The notes under the pieces were generated by a model. That model had not been told where the DNA came from. It did no database searches and saw nothing but the letters and a program-made list of their open reading frames with translations. This document shows positions 8,028-56,160 of a stretch of DNA of 64,000 nt, piece by piece. Origin of the DNA: Candidatus Binatia bacterium (lineage in GTDB: Bacteria > Desulfobacterota > Binatia > HRBIN30 > BPIQ01); assembly GCA_026004195.1 (NCBI GenBank), contig BPIQ01000002.1:558001-622000 (forward strand), read 5' to 3'. A program made the position numbers and the translations under genes. Positions within the stretch are counted from its first letter, which is position 1; every line of letters starts with the position of its first letter.

Positions 8028-9574
8028 GCCGTGCCTCGCAGACCCGGCCACGAAGCGCCCGGGAGAAGTCCGGCCAGGGCGAGAAGAAGCCAGGCATCAC
8101 CCCAGCGGACGTAAACCGTGAGGTCCCGCCGCGGTTCGACTTTTCCGACTGCGACGCCGGGGCCGTCCGGCCGAAGGAGCGAACGAATCTCGCCGTACGG
8201 TGTCACGAATCCGGAAATGCCCCCGGAAGACGCACGGACCAGGTAGCGGCGGGTTTCCACGGCTCGGAAAACGGCCATGGAAAAGTGCTGTCGGGAGGCC
8301 CCGCCGTCCCCGGAATCCATCCAGGAATCGTTCGAGATGTTGACCAGGAGCTCCGCCCCCTGCCTCACCGAATCTCGCACGAGGTGCGGGAAGAGGATCT
8401 CGTAGCAAATCGAGACACCGAGCAGGACGCCGTTCCAGCGAAGCGGGCGGGCGCTGCCACCCGGAGCGAACTCGGCCGGCTGTCCGTCGCGGGACCGGCG
8501 CCGCCAGAAGGGATTGTACTCGGCGAACGGAACGAGGCGTCGCTTGTCGTAGGTGTCGAGAATCGTCCCGCCCGGACCCAGGAGGTACGCGGAGTTGTAG
8601 GCGCGGTTTCCCCCGTCCGACCGTGGCGCACCGGTAAGAAGCGCGCCGGAGACGGGTGCCACCAGACCGCCGAGCTCCTCCCGAAGGGCGGGCTCTCGGT
8701 CCAGGTAGAAACTCACCGCATTCTCGGGCCAGACGACCAGGTCGGGGGAACGTGCGAGGGCGATCGTCGTGAGATTTCCGTACCTGTCGACGACCCGCCG
8801 CAGCCGTGCAGGATCCCACCGCCAGGCATTCGGCACGTCGGCCCCGACGACGGCAACGGTTCGCCCGGAAGGCAAGGCAGCGGTTTCCGCCATCCGGAAC
8901 CGGGCGCAGTGCCGGCCGTAAGCGACGGTGAACACGAGAAGCCCCACCGCGGGGGCGACGTGCCGCAAAGCGCGGGACCGCCATCTCCCGCGATTGCTTC
9001 CCGTGAACACTTCGACGAGCGAGAGGCTCGTGAAGGCGACCACGAAGGAAACGGCGTACACGCCGCCCAGGTCGGCGATTTGGATCAAGACGAGATTCGA
9101 GTACTGCGTGTGGCCCAGGAGTTCCCAGGGCATGCCCGTGAACAGTCGCGAGCGGAGGAGTTCCGCCCCGGCCCAGAGGCAAGCGCCGACCAGAGGACGC
9201 AGCCCGGACGAGACCCGATCGTGGAGAACGGCATAAGCGAAGAGCAGCGGCCCGTAGGTGAGGCCCCCGTACGCGAACCAGACGGCAAGAGCGAAGGCCC
9301 AGGCAGCCCACGGTCCGGCGTCGAAATATTTGAGCGTCGCATCGGGGGCCCAGTACGTAATCCCGTACCCGATCACGAACGCGAAAAGCACTCCGGCGCC
9401 GAAAGCCTTGCGAGGGCCCAGGCCTGCCGCTGCGAGGAAGAGAAGTCCCGGCACGGCCCACGCGGCAACCCACCGTTCGTAGGGAGGGCACGCGGCCGTG
9501 TAGAGCGCAGCGGCCAGGAGGACCCCGGAAAGCGGTGCCGACCGCCTCCACAGCGGGACGCCCGAGGTTGTCAT
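8024..9574 (-). CDS. lnt: apolipoprotein N-acyltransferase
   Basis: Encodes 516 aa from the ATG at 9574; an in-frame ATG at 9598 is an alternative, but AAGGACAGG just before 9574 looks like a better ribosome site. Six or more N-terminal membrane helices precede a nitrilase-fold domain. Its Glu-Lys-Cys triad is visible in VVWPENAVSF, DKRRLVPFAEYNPF and GVSICYEILFPHL. Lnt transfers an acyl chain from phospholipid to the N-terminal cysteine of lipoproteins in the inner membrane, the last step of lipoprotein maturation. It sits between two sensor kinase genes and overlaps the downstream one. Confidence 0.95.
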   Translation of the reverse strand: MTTSGVPLWRRSAPLSGVLLAAALYTAACPPYERWVAAWAVPGLLFLAAAGLGPRKAFGAGVLFAFVIGYGITYWAPDATLKYFDAGPWAAWAFALAVWFAYGGLTYGPLLFAYAVLHDRVSSGLRPLVGACLWAGAELLRSRLFTGMPWELLGHTQYSNLVLIQIADLGGVYAVSFVVAFTSLSLVEVFTGSNRGRWRSRALRHVAPAVGLLVFTVAYGRHCARFRMAETAALPSGRTVAVVGADVPNAWRWDPARLRRVVDRYGNLTTIALARSPDLVVWPENAVSFYLDREPALREELGGLVAPVSGALLTGAPRSDGGNRAYNSAYLLGPGGTILDTYDKRRLVPFAEYNPFWRRRSRDGQPAEFAPGGSARPLRWNGVLLGVSICYEILFPHLVRDSVRQGAELLVNISNDSWMDSGDGGASRQHFSMAVFRAVETRRYLVRASSGGISGFVTPYGEIRSLLRPDGPGVAVGKVEPRRDLTVYVRWGDAWLLLALAGLLPGASWPGLRGTA

Positions 9575-9622
9575 CCTGTCCTTCGCGGCTCTTTCCATCG
9601 TTCGGTGAGAGAAGCCTCGCCC

Positions 9623-10798
9623 CTACGAGACTACCGCCTCGGCGGACGCCACGGCCCCGCACTCGACGGTCGCCACCGGCGTGCCGAGCTCGCCCGCGGG
9701 CACCGGAAGCACGAGCGCGAAAACGGACCCGCGGCCCGGCTCGCTCGAAGCTTCGATGTCACCGCCGAGGATCCGCGCGAGCTTGCGGGAAAGAGCCAGG
9801 CCGAGACCGATACCCCCGTGTTGCCGCGTCGAAGAACCGTCGATTTGCCGGAACGGTTCGAACACGATCTCCATCTTGTCCGCGGGGATTCCAGGTCCGG
9901 TGTCCTCGACGGCGAAACGAACTCGCCCGTTCTCCGCCCGGATCCGAAGCGAAACCTCGCCTTCGGCCGTGAACTTGGCCGCGTTGCTCACCAGATTGCG
10001 CAAAATGGTTCGGAGCTTGACGGCGTCGGTGTAGAGTCGACTCGGCGCCCCCGTCACGTCGAGGGTGAACCTCACGTCCTTTCCCTCGAGCAGAAAATTC
10101 CCGAGACGCGCGAGCTCTCGCGCGACTTCCGCGGTCTCGACCCAGTCCGGATCGGACTGGACGACCCCCGCTTCCGCCTTGGCGTAGCTCAGAAAGTCGC
10201 ACACGAGCTCCGTCAGGTTCCCGACCGCTTTGCGGATCGACCCGAGGGGGGCACGCGTGGATTCGGGGAGCGACCCGTAAGCTCCTTCCTGCAGAAGATC
10301 GACGTAACCGAGGATGATGTTCAGCGGGGTCCGGAACTCGTGGGACACGTTGGCCACGAGCTCTCTCTGCAGCCGTTCTCGCTCGCGGATCTCCGCGAGC
10401 AATCGGTGGGCCTTGAGCGCCGAGTCCACCCAGAGGAGAAGCTTGTCCGGACCGTCGGCCTTGTCGTGGTACCCCTGGATGTCGAGCTCGGCCATCATCC
10501 GCCTGGCGGGCTTCTCGCCCGCATAGCCGGTCTGCAGGATGATCTGCACGTAGGGGTCGAAGCGCCGGATTTCCCGGATGAGCTGCTCGCCCGTCATCCG
10601 CGGCATGAAGTAGTCGACCAGAAGCAGGTGAATGTCGTGTTCGTGGAAGAGTTCGAGGGCGATCGGACCGCTCTCGGCGGTGAGCACGCGGTGCCCTTCA
10701 CGCTCGAGAAGTTTTCGGACCGAAAGCAGGACTTCCTCCTGGTCGTCGACGACCAGGATCGTGTGACCACTGGGAGAGGGACGGGATTTTCTCGCCAT
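9623..10798 (-). CDS. hybrid receiver-histidine kinase
   Basis: Encodes 391 aa with a receiver domain first: DD at 18-19 and phospho-acceptor Asp62 in LLLVDYFMPRMTG. A helical linker leads into HisKA (LQRELVANVSHEFRTPLNIILGYVDLL, with His in the SHEFRTP motif). The HATPase domain has NLVSNAAKFT, DTGPGIPADKM and GGIGLGLALSRKLARILGG. There is no membrane segment, so it is a cytoplasmic kinase whose receiver is fed by another kinase. The lnt gene follows after about 50 bp in the same direction, so cotranscription is likely. Confidence 0.92.
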   Translation of the reverse strand: MARKSRPSPSGHTILVVDDQEEVLLSVRKLLEREGHRVLTAESGPIALELFHEHDIHLLLVDYFMPRMTGEQLIREIRRFDPYVQIILQTGYAGEKPARRMMAELDIQGYHDKADGPDKLLLWVDSALKAHRLLAEIRERERLQRELVANVSHEFRTPLNIILGYVDLLQEGAYGSLPESTRAPLGSIRKAVGNLTELVCDFLSYAKAEAGVVQSDPDWVETAEVARELARLGNFLLEGKDVRFTLDVTGAPSRLYTDAVKLRTILRNLVSNAAKFTAEGEVSLRIRAENGRVRFAVEDTGPGIPADKMEIVFEPFRQIDGSSTRQHGGIGLGLALSRKLARILGGDIEASSEPGRGSVFALVLPVPAGELGTPVATVECGAVASAEAVVS

Positions 10799-17834: not shown

Positions 17835-17985
17835 CCGCCGGAGGGACGCGCCGCGTCGCGTCCGGGGGGCGGGGGCGAATGGGCGCGCGCGTTCGTGTTC
17901 GGGCACCCACGTCCACGCCATCCGCGAACGCGCGGTCATCCGGAGGGACGCGCTCCGTCGCGTCCGGGGGGCGGGGGCGGAAGAA
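17835..17985. repeat. REP array B in a divergent promoter region
   Basis: Two type-1 hairpins in the same orientation, at 17844-17863 (loop CCGCGT) and 17946-17965 (loop CTCCGT), each preceded by CGGAG. The roughly 80-bp spacer between them contains a sequence matching, in reverse complement, the spacer of the short units at 31950-32125 (GGGTGCCCGAACACGAACnCCCGCGCGC type). The array sits between the start codons of the SDR gene (17787) and the TLP1 gene (18057), so it lies within or next to both promoters. Confidence 0.85.
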
Positions 17986-18056: not shown

Positions 18057-19568
18057 ATGGAGGGAGCGGAGGACCGGATTCCCCTCGTCGTCGGGGTAGC
18101 TCAGTGGACCCAACGGGAAGTCGACCTGGACCGGCCGCCTTCTCCCCTCGAAGTCCTCGCCCGAGTTTGCCGCGCTGCTGCGGAAGACACGGGAGTGGGC
18201 GACGCCTTGTGGCGTCACGTCCGAACCGTGGCCGTCGTACACCTGGTGTCCTGGCGGTACACGAACCTTCCGAGGGCTCTCGCGGAAAAACTCGGAGCGA
18301 AGCCGGAGCGAGCACTCTACACGACGCCCGGAGGGAACAGCGGCCAGTGGCTCGTGAACCGCATCGCGCGCGAGATCGCGGGCGGGAAGCTCGATCTCGC
18401 GCTGGTAGGTGGCGTCGAACTTCTGAGAACCGTGCGGAAGGCACTCCGGGAAAGCCGGCCGCTCGCCTGGGAAACCGACTCGTCTTCCGAGCCGGAAATC
18501 GTCGGCGATCCGCGCCCGGGAACGAGAGAAGAAGAAGTACTCTACGGGGCCAGGGCACCCGTGCAGATTTTCCCGCTTTTCGAGAACGCACTCCGAGCCC
18601 ACTATGGACTCGACATGGAATCGCACCGGCAGGAGCTCGGTGCCCTTTGCCAGGGCCTCTCGCAAGTCGCCGCGCGCAACCCGTACGCCTGGTTCCCGAA
18701 GGAACGCAGTGCGGAGGAGATCTCGACGGTCACGGCCGAGAACCGGATGATCTCTTTCCCGTATCCCAAGTTCATGAACGCGCTTCTCGACGTCGACCAG
18801 GCAGCAGCACTGCTGCTCGCATCCGCCAGCACGGCCCGAAAACTCGGGATCCCTTCTTCGAAGTGGGTGTACGTCCGCGGTGTCGGCGACGCCGACGATC
18901 ACTGGTTTTTCACCGAGCGCCGCGACTACGTGAGCTCGCCTGCCCTCCGGCTCGCGGCCGAGCGGGCACTCGAGACCGCAGGTGCGTCGGCGGCCGACGT
19001 CGGACTCTTCGACCTGTACAGCTGTTTTCCGTGCGCCGTCCAGATCGGAAGGGACATGCTCGGGTTCTCGCGAGCCGACGCGAGGCCGTGGACCGTGACC
19101 GGCGGGCTCCCCTACCACGGGGGACCGGGCAGCAATTACACGACCCACGCCGTCGCCACGATGGTGGAAAAACTACGCCGCGGCGAGGCAAAGTGGGGAC
19201 TCGTGAGCGGCCTCGGCTGGTACTTCGCGAAGCATTCGGTGGGCGTCTATTCGACCGACCCACCCGACGAGGCACCCCGCTTCCGGAACCCGGACGCCGA
19301 CCGGTCCGAACTCGAGCGGATCCCGCGACCGCAGTTCGTCCGGGAGGCCGCCGGCAAGGCCCGCATCGAAACCTACACCGTCGTCCACGACCGGCAGGGA
19401 CTCCCGGCGCAGGCGATCGTCGTGGGACGCACGGCCGACGAGAAACGCTTTCTCGCGAACACGCCGGTCGACCGGAAGCTCTTCGAAGAGCTCGAGCGAA
19501 CCGAGGGCGTCGGGCGCCGCGGCAGGGTCTCCCACACAGGAGGCAAGAACGTTTTCGTGCCCGAATAG
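18057..19568 (+). CDS. thiolase-like protein type 1 (TLP1), first copy
   Basis: Encodes 503 aa. Residues about 1-410 have the thiolase fold. Where thiolases have the nucleophile (NRxCSSGLQA) this protein has TTPGGNSGQWLVNR with no Cys. The His loop is GGLPYHGGPGSNYTTHA, and the second Cys site is replaced by GLGWYFAKHSVGVYS. The last 90 residues (IETYTVVHDRQGLPAQAIVVGR ... EGVGRRGRV) form the extra C-terminal domain of TLP1 proteins. It is therefore unlikely to be a standard thiolase; a retro-aldol or CoA-binding role is possible. It is followed after 9 bp by a monooxygenase gene. Confidence 0.88.
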   Translation: MEGAEDRIPLVVGVAQWTQREVDLDRPPSPLEVLARVCRAAAEDTGVGDALWRHVRTVAVVHLVSWRYTNLPRALAEKLGAKPERALYTTPGGNSGQWLVNRIAREIAGGKLDLALVGGVELLRTVRKALRESRPLAWETDSSSEPEIVGDPRPGTREEEVLYGARAPVQIFPLFENALRAHYGLDMESHRQELGALCQGLSQVAARNPYAWFPKERSAEEISTVTAENRMISFPYPKFMNALLDVDQAAALLLASASTARKLGIPSSKWVYVRGVGDADDHWFFTERRDYVSSPALRLAAERALETAGASAADVGLFDLYSCFPCAVQIGRDMLGFSRADARPWTVTGGLPYHGGPGSNYTTHAVATMVEKLRRGEAKWGLVSGLGWYFAKHSVGVYSTDPPDEAPRFRNPDADRSELERIPRPQFVREAAGKARIETYTVVHDRQGLPAQAIVVGRTADEKRFLANTPVDRKLFEELERTEGVGRRGRVSHTGGKNVFVPE

Positions 19569-19577
19569 GAGGCCGAA

Positions 19578-20831
19578 ATGAAAGTGTGTTTTTTCCACCT
19601 CATGCCGTACACGGACCTCCCCGAGGACTTCCGGGAACGCTACCCCTCGGTCTGGGTCGACATCGACCCGAAGCTCTTCGATCCCGTGCGGGGACACGAG
19701 CTGTACAACGAGTTTCTCGACGAGCTCGAGTACGCGGCGGAGATGGGCTTCGACGGCATTTGCGTGAACGAGCACCACGCCAACGCGTACGGACTGATGC
19801 CGTCGCCGAACCTGATGGCCGCAGCCCTGGCCCGCAGGACGAAGGACGCGGCCATCGTAGTGATGGGCAACTCGCTCGCCCTCTACAACCCCCCGACCCG
19901 AGTGGCCGAGGAATTCGCGATGATCGACTGCATCTCGGGCGGCCGGCTCGTCGCGGGTTTTCCGGTGGGGACGCCCATGGACACCTGCTACGCCTACGGG
20001 CAGAACCCGAGCACGCTTCGGGCTCGGTACTACGAGGCCCACGATCTCATCCTGCGCGCGTGGACGACCGACGAACCCTTCGTTTTCCACGGCCGTTTCA
20101 ACCAACTTCGTTACGTGAACCCCTGGCCCCGCCCCGTCCAGCGCCCGCACCCGCCCATCTGGATTCCCGGTGGTGGCTCGGTGGAGACGTGGCGCTGGTG
20201 CGCGGAGAAAGATTACGTTTACTCCTACCTTTCCTACTTCGGCTACAAAGCGGGCGAAGCCACCATGAAGGGGTTCTGGCAGGAAATGGACAGGCTCGGA
20301 AAAGACCGGAACCCTTACCGGGCGGGCTTCCTCCAGTTCGTGGGAGTCGCCGAAACCACGGCCGAAGCCATGGACATCTACCGCGAGCCCGCGGAGTACT
20401 TCTACGGCCGCTGCCTCCACGTCGACACCCGCTGGGTCAATCCCCCGGGCTACGTGACGGAAGGCACGTTGCGGGCCCGAGTGAAATCCATGGTGGCTCA
20501 GGCAGCCGATCAGGCCTCGCAGGCGAACAAGGCTCTGAGCTTCGCCAAGCCCGAGTTCCGGCACATCGTGGAGCAGGGCTTCGTGATCGCGGGCAATCCC
20601 GACGAAGTGGCGGACAAACTCCGCGAGGTCGCACGAAACCTGAACGTGGGACACCTCATGCTGCTGCTGCAGTTCGGCAACATGAGCCGGGAACTCACGA
20701 CCTACAACACGGAGCTTTTCGCCCGCCGCGTGCTCCCGCAGATCCGAGACCTGTTCGACGACGAGTGGGAGGACCGCTGGTGGCCGCGGCCGCTCGAAAA
20801 AAGAGCCGTCCCCCGGGAGGCTGCCGCATGA
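19578..20831 (+). CDS. luciferase-like (LLM class) flavin-dependent monooxygenase
   Basis: Encodes 417 aa with the bacterial luciferase TIM-barrel pattern: an early FDGICVNEHHANAYGLMPSPNLMAAALARRT block, SGGRLVAGFPVGTPMD, and a central PHPPIWIPGGGSVETWRW. The family uses reduced flavin and oxygen to oxidise ketones, alkanes, sulfonates or aldehydes, with a separate reductase. No flavin reductase is nearby. A strong ribosome site (AGGAGG) precedes the ATG, and the stop overlaps the next gene's start (ATGA). It lies between two TLP1 genes, suggesting one catabolic unit. Confidence 0.9.
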   Translation: MKVCFFHLMPYTDLPEDFRERYPSVWVDIDPKLFDPVRGHELYNEFLDELEYAAEMGFDGICVNEHHANAYGLMPSPNLMAAALARRTKDAAIVVMGNSLALYNPPTRVAEEFAMIDCISGGRLVAGFPVGTPMDTCYAYGQNPSTLRARYYEAHDLILRAWTTDEPFVFHGRFNQLRYVNPWPRPVQRPHPPIWIPGGGSVETWRWCAEKDYVYSYLSYFGYKAGEATMKGFWQEMDRLGKDRNPYRAGFLQFVGVAETTAEAMDIYREPAEYFYGRCLHVDTRWVNPPGYVTEGTLRARVKSMVAQAADQASQANKALSFAKPEFRHIVEQGFVIAGNPDEVADKLREVARNLNVGHLMLLLQFGNMSRELTTYNTELFARRVLPQIRDLFDDEWEDRWWPRPLEKRAVPREAAA

Positions 20832-21607
20832 GACTCGAAGAGGAGACGCTCGATCTGGGACCCGTCCGCTCGCGGGTCTGGAGCAAGGGCACGGGACGGC
20901 CTCTCGCCTTTCTCGCAGGTTTCGGCGGCACGCCGCGCTGGCCGGAGTTTCTCGACCCGCTGGCCTCGGAGCACCGCGTGCTCGTTCCCGCGCTTCCCGG
21001 ATTCCCGGGCGCGACGGGCCACCACGAGCTCGACGACATCGTGGACTGGGTCGCGGCCACGCTCGACATTCTCGAGGCCGCGGGCTTCGAGCAAGGGGTA
21101 CTGGTCGGGGCGTCGGTGGGCGGCATGATCGCGGCCGAAATCGCCGCCCTGTGCAGGCCCATGGTCGAACGACTCGTGCTCTGCGCTCCGCTCGGGCTTT
21201 TCGACGAGCACGACCCGGTGGCCGACGTTTTCGCCGTGCCGCCCGCCGAGATACCCGCTTTCCTCTCGGCCGCACCCGAAAAACTCGCGGGGTTCTTCGC
21301 GCGCCCGGAAGGGGAAGACGAACTCGAGTGGACGGTCCTCACCGCACGGGCGGCAGAAGCGGCGGCGAGGCTTCTCTGGCCCCTCGGCGACCGCGGGCTG
21401 TGGAAACGCCTCCACCGCATCTCGGCTCCGACGCTCCTCGTCTGGGGAGCGGAAGACCGCGTCGTGCCGAGAAGCTACGCCCAGCGTTTCGCACGAGAGA
21501 TCCGCGGTCCCGTGAAAATCGAGACCGTCCCCGGGGCGGGGCATCTCTCCTACCTCGACCGACCCGCGGAGGTGGCGTCGCGCCTCCGGGCCTTCCTTCG
21601 GGCGTGA
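20828..21607 (+). CDS. alpha/beta hydrolase
   Basis: Encodes 259 aa with an intact triad: nucleophile Ser in VGASVGG (GxSxG), Asp in LLVWGAEDRVVP and His in GAGHLSYLDRP. It starts directly in the fold with no signal peptide, so it is cytoplasmic. The ATGA overlap with the monooxygenase gene shows coupled translation. In such a setting it may hydrolyse an ester or lactone made by the monooxygenase (a Baeyer-Villiger-type product), which is inference. The second TLP1 gene starts 34 bp after it. Confidence 0.9.
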   Translation: MRLEEETLDLGPVRSRVWSKGTGRPLAFLAGFGGTPRWPEFLDPLASEHRVLVPALPGFPGATGHHELDDIVDWVAATLDILEAAGFEQGVLVGASVGGMIAAEIAALCRPMVERLVLCAPLGLFDEHDPVADVFAVPPAEIPAFLSAAPEKLAGFFARPEGEDELEWTVLTARAAEAAARLLWPLGDRGLWKRLHRISAPTLLVWGAEDRVVPRSYAQRFAREIRGPVKIETVPGAGHLSYLDRPAEVASRLRAFLRA

Positions 21608-21641
21608 AGCCTGGCAAACTGCCGGGGCACCGGAGGAAGCA

Positions 21642-23147
21642 ATGGACGAAAATCTCCCCGTTCTCGTGGGTGGCGGCCAGATCACGCAAAAAGACGTCGA
21701 GCCACGCGAAGCGCTCGAGCCGCTCGGCCTCATGGTGGAAGCCGCAAGGCGTGCCGCCGAAGACGCTCGGCTCCCTGCCGGAGCACTGGAGAAACTCGAC
21801 TGCGTGGCCGTCGTCCACATCCTGGCGGCGGGTTACGCGAACGCGCCGCGTTTTGTGGCCGAAGCGCTCGGGGCGAGACCCGCGACCGAAATCTACACGA
21901 CCGTGGGCGGCAACACGCCGCAGTTTCTCCTGAACGAGCTCGCCAGCCGGATCGCCCGCGGCGAAACTCGCTTTGCCCTCCTCGCGGGCGCCGAAGCAAT
22001 CCACACGCTCCGTGCGGCCCGGAAATCGGGTCTCGCGTTGGCGTGGACGAAAAAAGAGGCCCCTCCGCCGACCGTCCTCGGTGACGAACGCCCGGGGACG
22101 AGCGAACACGAGAGTGCCCACGGTTTGCGCCTTCCCACGCAGGTCTACCCACTTTTCGAAAACGCCATCCGTGCCTCGCGTGGCTGGACCATCGAAGAAC
22201 ACCTCCGGCGGCTCGGGGAGCTGTGCGCACGTTTCGCCGCCGTCGCGGCGGAAAACCCGTATGCCTGGTTCCGCGACGGGAAAGACGCCCGCACGATCGC
22301 CACGGTCACGCCACAGAACCGGATGGTGGGCTTCCCGTACCCCAAGTACATGAACGCCATCATGGAGGTGGACCAGGGAGCGGCCGTGCTGCTCGCGTCC
22401 GCGGAGTTCGCCCGTTCGCTCGGCATCCCCCGGGAGCGCTGGGTCTACCCCTGGTGCGGCGCCGAAGGTCACGACCGCTGGTTCGTGAGCGATCGGGTCG
22501 ACTTCGTCTCTTCTCCCGCGATCCGGCGGCTCGCCGGCGCCGCGTTCGAGGCGCTGGGTCTCGACACCGACCGGGTCGATTTCTTCGACCTCTACAGTTG
22601 CTTCCCCTCGGCCGTGCAAATCGCCCGGGACATGATCGGCATTCGCGAGGACGATCCACGGCCCCTCACGGTGACGGGCGGGCTACCCTACCACGGTGGG
22701 CCGGGAAACAACTACACGACCCACGCGATCGCGACGATGATCGAGAAGCTCCGAAGCCGTCGCGGCGCGATCGGGTTCGTGAGCGCCCTCGGCTGGTTCA
22801 TCACGAAGCACGCCGTGGGCATCTACTCGTCCGAGCCTCCTCCGCGAGGGCGCTGGACCCGGCTCGACCACGAAAGGCTCCAGGCCGACATCGACGCGCT
22901 CGTGGGTCCCGCTTTCGAGCTTCGCCCCGAAGGCCGAGCGTACGTGGAAACGTACACCGTTTTCCACGACCGGGAAGGGAAACCCGTGGAAGGCTTCGTT
23001 TTCGGCCGGCTCGAGAACCGCAAGCGCTTCCTTTCCCACCTCCCGGCGGACCCGGAGCTCCTCGCGTCCTTCACGCGGGAGGAGGGAGTCGGACGAAAAG
23101 GCAGGGTCCGGCCCGAGAACGGGACGAACCTCTTCGTTCCCGACTGA
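21642..23147 (+). CDS. thiolase-like protein type 1 (TLP1), second copy
   Basis: Encodes 501 aa, a clear paralogue of the protein at 18057-19568 (roughly half of residues identical by eye; shared FDLYSCFPxAVQI and TVTGGLPYHGGPGxNYTTHA). It also lacks the thiolase Cys (TTVGGNTPQFLLNE) and has LGWFITKHAVGIYSS in place of the second Cys site. The C-terminal extra domain (VETYTVFHDREGKPVEGFVFGR ... EGVGRKGRV) is complete. Two divergent copies around one oxygenase suggest two distinct substrates or a heteromer. Ribosome site GGAGG precedes the ATG. Confidence 0.88.
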   Translation: MDENLPVLVGGGQITQKDVEPREALEPLGLMVEAARRAAEDARLPAGALEKLDCVAVVHILAAGYANAPRFVAEALGARPATEIYTTVGGNTPQFLLNELASRIARGETRFALLAGAEAIHTLRAARKSGLALAWTKKEAPPPTVLGDERPGTSEHESAHGLRLPTQVYPLFENAIRASRGWTIEEHLRRLGELCARFAAVAAENPYAWFRDGKDARTIATVTPQNRMVGFPYPKYMNAIMEVDQGAAVLLASAEFARSLGIPRERWVYPWCGAEGHDRWFVSDRVDFVSSPAIRRLAGAAFEALGLDTDRVDFFDLYSCFPSAVQIARDMIGIREDDPRPLTVTGGLPYHGGPGNNYTTHAIATMIEKLRSRRGAIGFVSALGWFITKHAVGIYSSEPPPRGRWTRLDHERLQADIDALVGPAFELRPEGRAYVETYTVFHDREGKPVEGFVFGRLENRKRFLSHLPADPELLASFTREEGVGRKGRVRPENGTNLFVPD

Positions 23148-23164
23148 AGCCGCCGCCGGGCGGG

Positions 23165-24496
23165 ATGCCTCGGGTGGCGCACCCCTTTCTGGAACGCCCC
23201 CACGGGACGTTCCTCTCGCTCTCCTTCCCCGTCCTCCTCTCGCTGCTCGTCGAACCGCTTGCGGGGGTCGCCGACACCGCCTTCGTCGCCCGGCTCGGCA
23301 GCGTACCGGCAGCCGCGCTCGGGGCGGCCACGAGCCTCCTTTCCGGTTTTCTCTGGGTCTTCAACTTCGTCGGTATCGGCACCCAGACGGAAGTGGCAGC
23401 CGCGCTGGGACGCGGCGAGAGGAACCGAGCGGCCGGTCTCGCGGCGCTCGGGCTTTCGGCGGCCGCGGCATGCGGGATCGTCTCCTCGGTGGCTCTCTGG
23501 TTCCTCGCCCCGGCGGCGGCACGCTTCATGGCTGCGGTCGGCGAACTCGAGGCACCGACGGTCGCCTACCTTCGCGTGCGGCTTCTCGGCGTGCCTCCCA
23601 CGCTCGTCGTGCTCGCGGCCTTCGGGGCTTTCCGCGGAATGCAAGACATGAAGACGCCGCTCTGGATCGCCGCGTTCGTGAGCGGACTCAACATTTGCCT
23701 CGATCCCCTTCTCATCTACGGTTCGGGGTGCGTTCCGGGGCTCGGGGTCGCAGGGGCGGCCTGGGCGACGACGGCAAGTCAGTGGCTCGGGAGCTTCTGG
23801 GCCGTACGAGCGCTGCGGGTCGGACTCGGTCTCGCAGGACGATTCGGTCCGGGAGACTTTCTCCGCCTCCTCCGCATCGGCAGAGACCTCTTTCTCCGCA
23901 CCGGGATGCTCCTTCTTTTTCTCGTCCTCGCCACGCGTGCTGCGACCGGGATCGGCCCCGAGACCGGCGCTGCCCACCAGGCGATCCGACAGGCCTGGAT
24001 CCTCACGGCGCTCGTCCTCGACAGCTACGCCGCCACGGCGCAGAGTCTCGTGGGCTTTTTCCTCGGCGGCGGCCGGGTGCGCGAAGCCCGTCGTGCGGCC
24101 GGCATCGCTTGCCTCTGGGGGCTTCTTACCGGGGCCGGCCTCTCCCTCCTCATGCTCGCGACCGGAAAAGGTGTCGCATGGCTGCTCGTGCCGACGGCGG
24201 CCGGGCCGGTCTTTTTTTCCGCCTGGCCCGTCGCGGCTCTGGCGCAGCCGCTCAACGCCCTCGCGTTCGTGACGGACGGCATCCACTGGGGTGCGAGCGA
24301 CTACGGATATCTGAGAAACGCCATGATGCTCGCGACGGTCGTGGGAGCGTCGATGCTCTTGGCCCTGGAAGCCGGTGGCAACCGAGACCTTGCAGCCATC
24401 TGGTGGGTCACGGCCGGCTGGATCGCGATCCGGGCAGTGTCCGGTGTCGGCAGGATCTGGCCCGCTTTCGGAAGAGCACCGCTCGCCGGCCGCTAG
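23165..24496 (+). CDS. MATE family efflux transporter
   Basis: Encodes 443 aa with about 12 membrane helices. It starts ERPHGTFLSLSFPVLLSLLVEPLAGVADTAFVARLG, the DinF-like MATE signature. The repeat halves are visible at LRVRLLGVPPTLVVLAAFGAFRGMQDMKTPLWIA and in the second half near AQPLNALAFVTDGIHWGASDYGYLRNAMM. These antiporters use H+ or Na+ to export cationic compounds. It follows the TLP1 gene after 17 bp and probably belongs to the same transcript, so it may export a substrate or product of that pathway. Confidence 0.92.
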   Translation: MPRVAHPFLERPHGTFLSLSFPVLLSLLVEPLAGVADTAFVARLGSVPAAALGAATSLLSGFLWVFNFVGIGTQTEVAAALGRGERNRAAGLAALGLSAAAACGIVSSVALWFLAPAAARFMAAVGELEAPTVAYLRVRLLGVPPTLVVLAAFGAFRGMQDMKTPLWIAAFVSGLNICLDPLLIYGSGCVPGLGVAGAAWATTASQWLGSFWAVRALRVGLGLAGRFGPGDFLRLLRIGRDLFLRTGMLLLFLVLATRAATGIGPETGAAHQAIRQAWILTALVLDSYAATAQSLVGFFLGGGRVREARRAAGIACLWGLLTGAGLSLLMLATGKGVAWLLVPTAAGPVFFSAWPVAALAQPLNALAFVTDGIHWGASDYGYLRNAMMLATVVGASMLLALEAGGNRDLAAIWWVTAGWIAIRAVSGVGRIWPAFGRAPLAGR

Positions 24497-24615: not shown

Positions 24616-27198
24616 ATGTTCGCGACATCGCTTCGAAGACTCGCCTTCGGGTCGCTTCTCGTCCTGGCCTCGTTCCTTCTCGTGGCCTGCGACGACGACG
24701 GGAACGGTCCCGGGGAAACGCCCGCCCCTACGCTCGTCCCGACGGCCACCGCATCCGCCGCACCTCCCGCGACCGCTTCGCCCCCACGCACGGCTTCGGC
24801 AACCCGGACGCCTTCTCTCACCGCCACGGCGACTCCCACGCTCTCTCTCACCCCGACGTCCACTCCGCCGCCTTCCCCGAGCCCGTCGCCGACCCGGAGC
24901 CCGGCGGAAATCCTCGCGTTCGACGAACCGCGAGAGAACGCCCTCGTCCTGGCCGGTAGGGTGGACTTCGTCCTCGAGCTTCCGCCCGGCGCTTCGGCTT
25001 CCGCTGCTTCGTTTTCCGTCGACGGCGAACCCGTCGTCCCCGAAGTCCTCGTCGAAAACGGCACGATCCGCGGGAGCGTCGAAGTGCCCGAGGGGCGGCA
25101 CGTCCTCTCGGTTCTCCTCCCCGTGGACGGGAGCCCTGCCACGGGCTCGGTTTTCTTCGAAGCGATCGAGCTCCGGCATCCCGACGAGTGCGAAATTCTG
25201 AACGACGAGGAATGCCTGCTTCCCTACCCTTCTTCGCGCTTTCTCGAACCCGCCGACACGCCCACCGGATGGCGGCTTCGGATCCCCGAAGTCGGAATGA
25301 TCCAGCAGGCCGGGCGGAAGCTTTCTCCGGAGCCTTACAACACGGTCGACGGATTCGCCCCGACCGTGCAGATTCTCGTCCACTTCCCCGGCGGCGTAGA
25401 CCCCGAGCTTTCCGGTGCCTCTCGCCTCCTTCCCGAGACGCGCACGTACGACCTGCGGTCGCTCGACCCCGACAGCCCGACCGTGCTCCTGGATGCCGAA
25501 ACCGGCGAGCGAATCCTTCACTTCATCGAGCCCGACATCCGGGCCGCCGACAACCCGAAACGGCAGGTTCTCTTTCTGAGGCCCGCGACGAGCCTGCGGC
25601 CGGCACGGCGGTACGTCGTGGCGTTTCGGAACCTGCGCCACCCCGACGGCTCTCCCGTCGAAGCCGAGCCCGTCTTCGCGGCGCTTCGAGACCGCCGGCC
25701 TTCGAGCATCCCGGCCCTCGAGGCCCGGCGGGAGCACTTCGAGGAGCTCTTTGCACTGCTCGAGGCCGCGGGCATTTCGCGAGAATCCCTGGTGCTCGCC
25801 TTCGATTTCGTCACACAGAGCGACGAAAGCCTCACCGGGGAGATGCTCTCCATGCGCGATCAGGCCTTCGCCTGGCTCGAGGCGAAGGTCGCCGAAGGGA
25901 CGGAGACCTTCACCGTCGATCGCGTCGTCGAAAACGAGTGCCGCGAGGGCACTCTGGTATGGCGGCAGGTGGAAGGCACGTACGAGGTGCCGCTCTTCCT
26001 TACGCACGACCCGGCCGCGGACCGACGCTTCCCGGGCCGCCTTCATCTGGACGAGCAGGGAGTTCCGGTCCAGAACGGGGTTACGCATCCGCCCTTCACG
26101 ATCGTGATCCCGTGCACGGCGCTGGAGGACGGGGGAACTCCGAAGCCCGGCCTCGTCGTCGGGCACGGGCTTTTCGGCACCGGGCGGGGAACCCTCGAAG
26201 GACTCCTCGAAGAGCAGAACTCGTCGCTCCTCTCCGACCTCGACTTCGTCCTCGGAGCCACGGACTGGTGGGGACTCTCGAGGGGAGACATCGACCCCCC
26301 GCCGAGCTTCATCGTCGACCAGGTCGTCTTCCAGCTCGGGAATTTCCCCGCTCTTCCGGACCGGCTGCGGCAGGGCCAGCTCAACACGCTCGTGCTCGCC
26401 CGGATGATGAAGCGCGGTGTTTTCAACCGCCACCCGGCTTTCCAGTCACCGGAAGGAACGGGCCTCCTCCAGGGTCCCGAGGGGGAGCTCTACTACTTCG
26501 GAGCGAGCCTGGGGGGGATCATGGGCCTCATGTTCGCGGCTCTCTCGCCCGACGTGACGAACGTGAACGTGGACGTGCCCGCCATGAATTTCTCGATCCT
26601 CCTCCAGCGGGCGACACCGTTTCTCGACTTCGAGCTCGCGCTGCGTCTCACCCAGATCACGGATCCCATGGAAGTCGCCCTCGGAATCGGGATTTTCGAG
26701 GAGCTCTGGGCCAAGGGAGAGTCGGCGGGCTATGCGACCCACATCACGGAAAATCCGCTGCCCGGCACGAATCCGAAGAACGTGCTCATGACCATGGCCT
26801 GGCTCGACCAGCAGGTGTCGAACCAGGCGACCGAAATCGCCGCCCGCACGCTGGGACTTCCGAACCTCGAAGGATCGTTCGTCCGCGACCTGCCCCTCAT
26901 CCCCGACCTTCCCGGACCGCTCTCGTCCGCCCTCGTCGTGTACGACACGGGTTCTTTCGACCCGGAAAATCCGGCTCACGCACCCTTCATCCCGCCTCTC
27001 GCGAACCTCCAGGCACGACCGAACCGCTGCGATCCTCACGGGCTCCGTGGCTTCATCCCGGCGTCCATCCAGCAACTGCTCCACTTCTTCCGTCCGGGCG
27101 GGAGGATCGAGAACTTCTGCAACGGAATCTGCGACGCGGCCGAACCGCTCGAGCTCCCGTTCGGTCGCGAAGAGCCGTGCGATCCGCTCGCGCAGTGA
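24616..27198 (+). CDS. large lipoprotein with alpha/beta-hydrolase-like domain
   Basis: Encodes 860 aa. The signal ends in a lipobox (FLLVAC), so Cys25 is lipidated; Asp follows it, which may favour inner membrane retention. Residues about 34-95 are a low-complexity Thr/Pro/Ser/Ala tether. An Ig-like segment follows (about 100-185). A long hydrolase-type domain comes next with PGLVVGHGLFGTGRG (oxyanion-type loop) and GxSxG in YFGASLGGIMGLM. The domain order resembles uncharacterised deltaproteobacterial lipoproteins. The substrate is unknown; it could act on an ester or polymer at the envelope. Confidence 0.8.
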   Translation: MFATSLRRLAFGSLLVLASFLLVACDDDGNGPGETPAPTLVPTATASAAPPATASPPRTASATRTPSLTATATPTLSLTPTSTPPPSPSPSPTRSPAEILAFDEPRENALVLAGRVDFVLELPPGASASAASFSVDGEPVVPEVLVENGTIRGSVEVPEGRHVLSVLLPVDGSPATGSVFFEAIELRHPDECEILNDEECLLPYPSSRFLEPADTPTGWRLRIPEVGMIQQAGRKLSPEPYNTVDGFAPTVQILVHFPGGVDPELSGASRLLPETRTYDLRSLDPDSPTVLLDAETGERILHFIEPDIRAADNPKRQVLFLRPATSLRPARRYVVAFRNLRHPDGSPVEAEPVFAALRDRRPSSIPALEARREHFEELFALLEAAGISRESLVLAFDFVTQSDESLTGEMLSMRDQAFAWLEAKVAEGTETFTVDRVVENECREGTLVWRQVEGTYEVPLFLTHDPAADRRFPGRLHLDEQGVPVQNGVTHPPFTIVIPCTALEDGGTPKPGLVVGHGLFGTGRGTLEGLLEEQNSSLLSDLDFVLGATDWWGLSRGDIDPPPSFIVDQVVFQLGNFPALPDRLRQGQLNTLVLARMMKRGVFNRHPAFQSPEGTGLLQGPEGELYYFGASLGGIMGLMFAALSPDVTNVNVDVPAMNFSILLQRATPFLDFELALRLTQITDPMEVALGIGIFEELWAKGESAGYATHITENPLPGTNPKNVLMTMAWLDQQVSNQATEIAARTLGLPNLEGSFVRDLPLIPDLPGPLSSALVVYDTGSFDPENPAHAPFIPPLANLQARPNRCDPHGLRGFIPASIQQLLHFFRPGGRIENFCNGICDAAEPLELPFGREEPCDPLAQ

Positions 27199-31139: not shown

Positions 31140-32151
31140 ACCCCGCGGACGCGACGGAGCGCGTCCCTCCGTGGGCGTGGCCGCGTTCGTCGGAGGGACC
31201 CGCTCTGTCGGGTCCGTATTCGTGCCTGGTACCTCCGTCCGCCCCCGCCGACGAATTCGGAGGGCCACGGGGTTGTGAGGAAATCCCCGGTTGGCCCAGT
31301 TTCGCACGAAAAAAACCCGGCAAAATCGGTGGGGCCCGATCGCCCAGGAGGAATTTTTTCACGTCCTCCACGCTCTGTCGTGGCCGTGTTCGCCGACGGC
31401 GGGAACGTCGATCCCTCGATGCGAACGGTCGTTTCCCCGCCCCCCGGACGCGACGGAGCGCGTCCCTCCGTGGTCCACGTTCGTGCCTGGTACCTCGGTC
31501 CGCCCCGGCCGACGAATTCGGAGGGCCACGCTCTGTCGTGGCCGCGTTCGCCGACGGCGGGAACGTCGATCCCTGGATGCGAACGGTCGTCGTTCTTCCG
31601 CCCCCCCCGGACGCGACGGAGCGCGTCCCTCCGTGGTCCACGTTCGTGCGTGGTACCTCCGTCCGCCCCCCGCGGACGAATTCGGAGGGCCACGCTCTGT
31701 CATGGCCGCGTTCGCCGACGGCGGGAACGTCGATCCCTCGATGCGAACACGGTCGTTTCCTCGCCCCCCGGACGCGACGGAGCGCGTCCCTCCGTGGTCC
31801 ACGTTCGTGCCTGGTACCTCGGTCCGCCCCCGCCGACGAATTCGGAGGGCCACGCTCTGTCGTGGCCGCGTTCGCCCACGGCGGGAACGTCGATCCCTCG
31901 ATGCGAACACGGTCGTTTCCTCGCCCCCCGGACGCGACGGAGCGCGTCCCTCCGGATGGCCGTGTTCCCGGATGGCGTGGACGCGGGTGCCCGAACACGA
32001 ACACCCGCGCGCATTTCCCGCCCCCCCCGGACGCGACGGAGCGCGTCCCTCCGGATGGCCGTGTTCGCGGATGCCGTGGACGCGGGTGCCCGAACACGAA
32101 CGCCCGCGCGCATTTCCCGCCCCCCGGACGCGACGGAGCGCGTCCGCGGAG
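31140..32151. repeat. REP/BIME array C, large mixed cluster
   Basis: Type-1 hairpins at 31147-31166, 31446-31465, 31609-31628, 31770-31789, 31930-31949, 32029-32048 and 32126-32145. Inverted type-2 hairpins at 31524-31543, 31688-31707 (one mismatched pair) and 31848-31867; a third stem variant GGACCCG/CGGGTCC at 31196-31215. Degenerate type-2 copies lie near 31259 and 31369. Long units repeat every 160-163 bp, short ones every 97-99 bp. The cluster fills the whole gap between two convergent genes. Translated frames here are repeat by-products; I see no separate gene. Confidence 0.92.
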
Positions 32152-55639: not shown

Positions 55640-56160
55640 GCCGCTCCCCGGACGCGTCGGAACGCGTCCCGCCGGGTGCGCATCGACTTCCACGCGACGT
55701 TCCGAACGTGCGAATCGGAGGGCCACGCTCTGTCGTGGCCGTGTTCGCCGACGGCGGGAACGCCGATCCCTGGATGCGAACGGCCGTCGTTCCTCCGCCT
55801 CCCCCCGGACGCGACGGAGCGCGTCCCCCCGGCGTGCCCATCGACCTCCACGCGACGTTCCGAACGTGCGAATCGGAGGGCCACGCTCTGTCGTGGCCGT
55901 GTTCGCCGACGGCGGGAACGCCGATCCCTGGATGCGAACGGCCGTCGTTCCTCCGCCTCCCCCCGGACGCGACGGAGCGCGTCCCTCCGGGTGCCCATCG
56001 ACCTCCACGCGACGTTCCGAACGTGCGAATCGGAGGGCCACGCTCTGTCGTGGCCGTGTTCGCCGACGGCGGGAACGTCGATCCCTGGATGCGAACGGCC
56101 GTCGTTCTCCCGCCCCGCCCCGGACGCGACGGAGCGCGTCCCGCCGGCGGGTCGCGCCGG
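55640..56160. repeat. REP/BIME array D, three 158-bp tandem units
   Basis: Type-1 hairpins at 55650-55669 (loop TCGGAA), 55807-55826, 55965-55984 and 56122-56141. Inverted type-2 hairpins at 55721-55740, 55879-55898 and 56036-56055. The period is 157-158 bp. A roughly 38-bp spacer (GTTCGCCGACGGCGGGAACG then TCGATCCCTGGATGCGAAC) is nearly identical to that of the long units at 31388-31915. The array lies between the VOC gene start (55564) and the nitrilase stop (56163). Confidence 0.93.

Follow-up and report, generated by a model that had tools for sequence, protein, structure and literature searches.

The locus

A 64,000-nucleotide stretch of the genome of a Candidatus Binatia bacterium (assembly GCA_026004195.1, contig BPIQ01000002.1, positions 558,001 to 622,000; here called the window) contains two genes for thiolase-like proteins type 1 (TLP1), which we name TLP1-A and TLP1-B. 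Between them lie genes for a luciferase-like flavin monooxygenase (LLM) and an alpha/beta hydrolase, and a gene for an exporter of the MATE family follows. The host genome comprises 3.63 Mb in 6 contigs. An earlier note on this DNA had read the TLP1 proteins as Cys-free enzymes that may act like the retro-aldolase Ltp2, and the four genes as a catabolic module. The genes and motifs of the locus, numbered from the first letter of the window, are as follows.

18057-19568, plus strand: TLP1-A, 503 amino acids; PF18313 (TLP1_add_C) E 6.9e-17, 61.6 bits; 4egv E 1.8e-82
18330-18347, plus strand: GGNSGQ of TLP1-A where thiolases have the nucleophile-Cys motif, with Gly92 aligned to the Cys; from the sequence and alignment with HDCF thiolases
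19017-19028, plus strand: YSCF loop of TLP1-A with Tyr321 and Cys323, the proposed catalytic dyad; from the TLP1 alignment, aligned to HDCF of 4bi9
19305-19541, plus strand: C-terminal TLP1_add_C domain of TLP1-A, predicted DUF35-like OB fold; from Pfam, fold comparison and hhalign
19578-20831, plus strand: LLM flavin monooxygenase, 417 amino acids; PF00296 E 2.5e-35
20828-21607, plus strand: alpha/beta hydrolase, 259 amino acids; PF12697 E 1.2e-23
21642-23147, plus strand: TLP1-B, 501 amino acids; PF18313 E 6.1e-16, 58.6 bits
21906-21923, plus strand: GGNTPQ of TLP1-B in place of the nucleophile-Cys motif; from the sequence and alignment
22593-22604, plus strand: YSCF loop of TLP1-B with Tyr318 and Cys320; from the sequence and alignment
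22878-23117, plus strand: C-terminal TLP1_add_C domain of TLP1-B; from Pfam
23165-24496, plus strand: MATE family exporter, context only; PF01554 E 1.3e-27, TIGR00797 above cut-off

The gaps between the five genes, all on the plus strand, are 9, -4, 34 and 17 base pairs (bp); the reading frames of LLM and hydrolase share 4 bp, from the hydrolase ATG to the LLM stop, and the MATE gene starts 17 bp after TLP1-B. Given this spacing, the five genes are likely to form one transcript. A promoter scan of the locus found nothing.

TLP1 proteins share an invariant tyrosine and cysteine

TLP1-A and TLP1-B are 48% identical to each other, and both pass the PF18313 cut-off of 26.1 bits. They also match, below cut-off, the NCBI PRK08257 models for acetyl-CoA (coenzyme A) acetyltransferase, which is the label that TLP1 proteins carry in public annotation. 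Their solved relative, homologous over the full length, is MsTLP1 of M. smegmatis (4egv), to which they are about 35-40% identical in structural alignments and with which they share two domains, the YSCF motif and the loss of the thiolase motifs. According to PMC3406046, thiolase-like proteins lack all thiolase motifs and have YSCF in place of NEAF; MsTLP1 is reported there to be a monomer with a C-terminal six-stranded barrel, to show no thiolase activity and to bind CoA with a dissociation constant of 0.6 mM. The window proteins follow this pattern, carrying the YSCF fingerprint and having lost CxS, NEAF, GHP and CxG. Alignment thus bore out the observation that GGNSGQ and GGNTPQ replace the nucleophile motif and that the second (CxG) Cys is absent. 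Because the family was published as lacking every thiolase motif, the loss of Cys is a family trait, and we rejected it as a peculiarity of this locus.

We aligned 97 TLP1 proteins, namely the two from the window and those of 95 other loci (12 of 107 loci were dropped as partial or interrupted). The Tyr and Cys of YSCF were invariant in all 97, and the column of the nucleophile position was Gly in 93. YSC was likewise kept in all ten plasmid-borne TLP1 homologues. The TLP1 proteins are therefore not Cys-free, contrary to what the note had proposed: their active-site loop holds a cysteine, Cys323 in TLP1-A and Cys320 in TLP1-B. The HGGPG loop fared differently. MsTLP1 has Phe in place of its His, and only 14 of the 97 proteins have this His; it is no family feature, and we rejected it as a catalytic residue.

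These data bear on whether TLP1 is an enzyme at all. A CoA-thioester binding or scaffold protein would fit the monomeric state, the weak CoA binding and the missing thiolase activity reported for MsTLP1 (PMC3406046). The strict conservation of a Tyr and a Cys in the catalytic loop is, however, hard to explain without chemistry, and we consider a non-enzymatic role unlikely.

TLP1 was found in 59 of the 148 genomes of the host's class and also occurs in Pseudomonadota, Actinomycetota and other groups; TLP1-B groups with the TLP1 of one genus, g4 (tree support 98/94). We rejected the idea of one fixed TLP1 operon across lineages, since the neighbours vary (RDD, S9 peptidase, short-chain dehydrogenase (SDR), amidase, zinc-dependent alcohol dehydrogenase (Zn-ADH) and others). 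At three Pseudomonadota loci (L053, L056 and L071), the gene immediately preceding TLP1 belongs to one and the same cluster (cluster 17); the L053 copy, the one tested, is a classical thiolase. No paper assigning a function to TLP1 was found among the open-licence papers searched.

The TLP1 active site aligns with that of a bile-acid retro-aldolase

In a profile alignment, YSCF falls on HDCF of the SCP2 thiolase 4bi9, that is, on the NEAF/HDCF loop of thiolases, and the thiolase nucleophile Cys, which neither window protein has, aligns with Gly. A TLP1 profile also finds two retro-aldolases, CtSal (9myr, E 4.9e-8) and Ltp2 (6ok1, E 4.2e-9). CtSal, a proteobacterial enzyme that acts on the side chain of bile acids, is reported in PMC12329534 to need Tyr302 and Cys304 of its YDCY motif and to have Gly at the nucleophile site. 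The Tyr and Cys of YSCF fall where CtSal has these two catalytic residues, and the nucleophile position is Gly in both. The earlier note had counted a cysteine at another place in the active site as a refutation of its reading. Such a cysteine is literally present, yet it occupies the position of the catalytic Cys of CtSal and therefore favours the aldolase reading.

We then compared non-TLP1 relatives from the same genomes, using 14 of 20 fetched sequences (the other 6 had no motif recognized by pattern). The nucleophile Cys was present in all six HDCF proteins, whereas all eight YDCF or YDAF proteins had Gly. In a tree, TLP1 and these Y-type relatives form a clade (99/99) apart from the HDCF and NEAF proteins. 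This grouping supports, but given a long TLP1 branch does not prove, that TLP1 belongs to a tyrosine-type branch of the thiolase fold.

Among characterized proteins, CtSal shares with TLP1 a thiolase fold in which Gly replaces the nucleophile and the NEAF loop carries a Tyr-x-Cys dyad, together with an OB partner of the DUF35 kind; its coupling to a hydratase is paralleled in part of the TLP1 family and not in the window. It differs in having YDCY, a separate OB chain with a zinc ribbon and a dimeric state, at about 20% identity. The complex of Ltp2 with the DUF35 protein ChsH2 (6ok1) shares the thiolase fold, a catalytic Tyr on the same loop and a DUF35 OB domain. By contrast with TLP1, Ltp2 is described as having YDHF and a second catalytic Tyr (Tyr344) instead of Cys, with DUF35 as a separate chain; the His of YDHF is absent from the YSCF of TLP1. 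The trypanosomal SCP2-thiolase-like protein TbSLP (5ab4-5ab7) has YDCF, no nucleophile Cys and no associated DUF35 domain; it is proposed to be an aldolase in PMC12329534, in whose main text the term TLP1 does not appear. SCP2-type thiolases (4bi9) share the fold, and their HDCF Cys aligns with the YSCF Cys, but they retain the nucleophile Cys and the HDCF His and catalyse thiolysis.

The C-terminal domain resembles the DUF35 partner of Ltp2

The C-terminal extra domain that the earlier note had recognized is present in both proteins as TLP1_add_C. Modelled alone, it gave a pLDDT of 95.8, and against the PDB its first matches were six 4egv chains, followed by the DUF35 chains that ChsH2 contributes to the complex with Ltp2. 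The best match outside TLP1 was 6ok1_B (Foldseek E 9e-3, VIA Z 7.5), with scores that are modest on their own; further DUF35 proteins came after 6ok1, interspersed with OB folds in general. We also aligned the domain by hhalign with a profile built from 14 DUF35 domains of the host genome, and obtained a probability of 84.6 and a score of 37.0. Controls reached at most 19.3 in 200 column shuffles and at most 11.2 with six segments taken from the thiolase part of TLP1. Fold comparison of the model and profile alignment thus support reading the C-terminal domain as an OB fold of the DUF35 kind, like the partners that Ltp2 and Sal use, but fused to the thiolase domain in TLP1, as the note had suggested. 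DUF35 homologues were described in 2010 as able to be fused to thiolases (PMC2954200).

Enoyl-CoA hydratase is a recurrent partner of TLP1

Across 125 TLP1 loci, an enoyl-CoA hydratase was encoded by 7 of 232 genes directly adjoining TLP1 and by 1 of 1181 genes further out (Fisher p 2e-5, a guide only, as four of the seven hits had served as seeds for the hydratase model, which makes the count partly circular). The two functions are also joined in single proteins, in Aeromicrobium, where the TLP1 reading frame runs into the hydratase, and in Novosphingobium and Sphingobium. The fusion proteins lie at:

L095:7992-10352, TLP1-enoyl-CoA hydratase fusion
L280:6995-9349, TLP1-enoyl-CoA hydratase fusion
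L283:6992-9337, TLP1-enoyl-CoA hydratase fusion

The fusions of Novosphingobium (strain EMRT-2, WP_136957829.1) and Sphingobium, from plasmid records of cultured bacteria, adjoin a CoA transferase, and plasmids of Massilia (M. putida) and Methylobacterium carry TLP1-hydratase gene pairs together with CoA ligases. Altogether, hydratase is fused or adjacent in 6 of 10 plasmid TLP1 records. Both catalytic Glu positions, which we take to be those of the rat hydratase, are kept in 11 of the 12 hydratase copies compared.

A published case fits the same pattern: Table 1 of PMC4619459 lists ORF11 of Pseudomonas SBV1 (30% to 4EGV), a TLP1 gene, which overlaps the hydratase-like bvaB2. Hydration followed by aldol cleavage is the logic of Shy-Sal and of ChsH1H2-Ltp2 as described in PMC12329534. 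As separate observations, the distant third TLP1 of the host genome (L136, G000:C1:1405500-1423500, TLP1 at 8281-9753) follows the genome's only gene for an FMO-like (Baeyer-Villiger type) monooxygenase, and at L248 of G013 an FMO gene is followed by an enoyl-CoA hydratase gene and then, after 3 bp, by TLP1.

The same residues and the same hydratase linkage would suit an enzyme running forward, as a synthase of the aldol or Claisen type that couples an acyl-CoA enolate with a carbonyl, the linked hydratase then dehydrating the product. Nearby folds include PhlC and CsATase, two acyltransferases of the thiolase fold that have DUF35 partners. The CoA ligases and CoA transferases linked to TLP1 on plasmids look catabolic, however, and the Y-type relatives characterized in PMC12329534 cleave, so that we regard synthesis as quite improbable.

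TLP1 as a candidate single-chain retro-aldolase

On the evidence of YSCF, the fold, the OB domain and the hydratase partners, TLP1-A and TLP1-B are probably, if by a modest measure of confidence, retro-aldolases of the tyrosine-type thiolase-fold branch, each a single chain that cleaves C-C bonds of CoA thioesters and is coupled to a hydratase. We infer the reaction, its direction and, by analogy with CtSal, the roles of the residues, as well as the overall role of the operon. In the proposed pathway a CoA ligase or CoA transferase would activate an acid, and enoyl-CoA hydratase would form a beta-hydroxyacyl-CoA. TLP1 would bind this compound in its thiolase fold, with the DUF35-like OB domain of the same chain close to the site. 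The Tyr of YSCF would take the proton of the beta-hydroxyl as the C-C bond breaks, and the Cys would protonate the acyl-CoA enolate, giving acetyl- or propionyl-CoA and an aldehyde or ketone. The link to Ltp2-like retro-aldolases drawn in the earlier note is thus supported by the Y-type grouping and the ChsH2 DUF35 match, while its Cys-free premise is lost.

Several points weigh against a retro-aldolase. None of the TLP1 proteins has a demonstrated activity, and MsTLP1 is reported in PMC3406046 to have been assayed for thiolase activity only; the affinity of that protein for CoA is weak. The TLP1 branch in the Y-type tree has a length of 2.88. The AlphaFold2 model of TLP1-A is confident (pLDDT 96.4), and in VIA fold comparison the thiolases 7yvy and 6et9 outscore CtSal and Ltp2; the global fold is therefore not decisive, and we rejected its ranking as a means of choosing between thiolase and aldolase. 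At the residue level, the Asp of CtSal YDCY is Ser in YSCF, and the mapping covers the Tyr, the Cys and the Gly site, where CtSal has Gln residues as well and Ltp2 a second catalytic Tyr. Unlike the monomeric MsTLP1, both of these aldolases form dimers and have DUF35 as a protein of its own, and the DUF35 zinc ribbon was not seen in the 100-residue C-terminal domain of TLP1. The hydratase linkage has its own weaknesses beyond the circularity of the count: the seven hits do not count as independent (L248 and L142 share 92% identity, and L256 and L257 come from one genus), one hydratase copy (L130) lacks both catalytic Glu, four of the ten plasmid records have no adjacent hydratase, and none adjoins TLP1-A or TLP1-B in the window.

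The LLM-hydrolase pair is independent of TLP1

The LLM of the window has a Bac_luciferase domain scoring 122.8 bits against a cut-off of 27.9; its cofactor may be FMN or F420, and the host genome contains an F420 ligase gene. Among 31 further loci that carry an LLM of the window type, 30 have the hydrolase next to it; this sample comprised 11 loci at the order level and the best 20 at the class level, of 102 genomes with matches. LLM homologues occur in 102 of the 148 genomes of the class and TLP1 in 59, and whole families have one without the other. The LLM and the hydrolase are thus an independent, conserved and widespread pair, common in genomes without TLP1. In one family without TLP1 (f8; G018, G024, G031, G038 and G051), we noted at first look about 90-190 LLM candidates per genome, with up to 8 matches to the window LLM.

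The order TLP1-LLM-hydrolase-TLP1 was found at no second locus among 110 TLP1 loci (3 of them duplicates), and we rejected a conserved four-gene module. Nor was the catabolic module of the note supported: the LLM and hydrolase form a pair of their own, and the recurring partner of TLP1 is the hydratase, which the window lacks. With neighbouring genes called by a simple purpose-made gene caller, an LLM was encoded by 6 of 327 genes within three genes of TLP1, three of these from one genus, where roughly 1% is expected. Because genomes hold so many LLM genes (10 to at least 31 each), this is no clear excess, and we rejected LLM enrichment beside TLP1.

The order TLP1-LLM-hydrolase does recur in three genomes, all of genus g4. 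The LLM and hydrolase of the window and those of g4 form two separate subfamilies (joined in 0 of 200 bootstrap trees), so either such a pair became associated with TLP1 on two occasions or one pair was swapped for another. This recurrence, even with another subfamily, would fit a dedicated module with TLP1, LLM and hydrolase working one after another, as would the tight spacing in the window, the FMO-like gene preceding the host's third TLP1 and an LLM preceding TLP1 in L143. Against it stand the lack of a second four-gene locus, an LLM frequency near TLP1 not far from expectation and the many LLM-hydrolase pairs where TLP1 is absent. Such a module, which concerns the operon and does not compete with the reading of TLP1 itself, seems rather unlikely to us.

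Alternatively, the pair may have come to lie between the two TLP1 genes by chance or transfer, in an operon without joint function, to which we give nearly an even chance. The closest relative of the window LLM (79%, with a paired hydrolase at 62%) lies in a different gene order in a genome without TLP1 (L203 of G019). The one-strand gaps of -4 to 34 bp and the second occurrence in g4 speak against mere coincidence. For this operon it is a reasonable guess that the LLM would convert the carbonyl product by oxidation into an ester or acid, and that the hydrolase would then cleave the ester.

Other features near the locus

Two copies of a dispersed hairpin repeat, with the core GGACGCG-CTCCGT-CGCGTCC, lie immediately upstream of TLP1-A. 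We counted 13 copies in the window, among them those at 17840-17967, 31145-32052 and 55648-56145, and 420 in the genome (at most 3 mismatches; 0 for the reversed control); the copies often form clusters with a spacing of roughly 95-165 bp. Downstream of the MATE gene, a long lipoprotein-like open reading frame (24616-27198, plus strand) has a lipobox-like LVACDDD and a hydrolase-like GASLGG and no Pfam match.

Implications for the TLP1 family

TLP1 is widespread, and since 2012 its structure has been solved with no function assigned to it; the aldolase reading singles out two residues and, as partner, a hydratase. It is possible, though we hold the full picture to be doubtful, that TLP1 forms a third group of thiolase-fold CoA-thioester aldolases, made of one chain with its own DUF35-derived OB domain and a Tyr/Cys dyad, coupled and sometimes fused to a hydratase, with the two paralogues here feeding a carbonyl to the LLM and hydrolase. 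If the aldolase prediction is true, a widespread misannotation as acetyl-CoA acetyltransferase would be corrected, and a compact one-chain aldolase, of interest for steroid chemistry, would join the set of Ltp2 and Sal.

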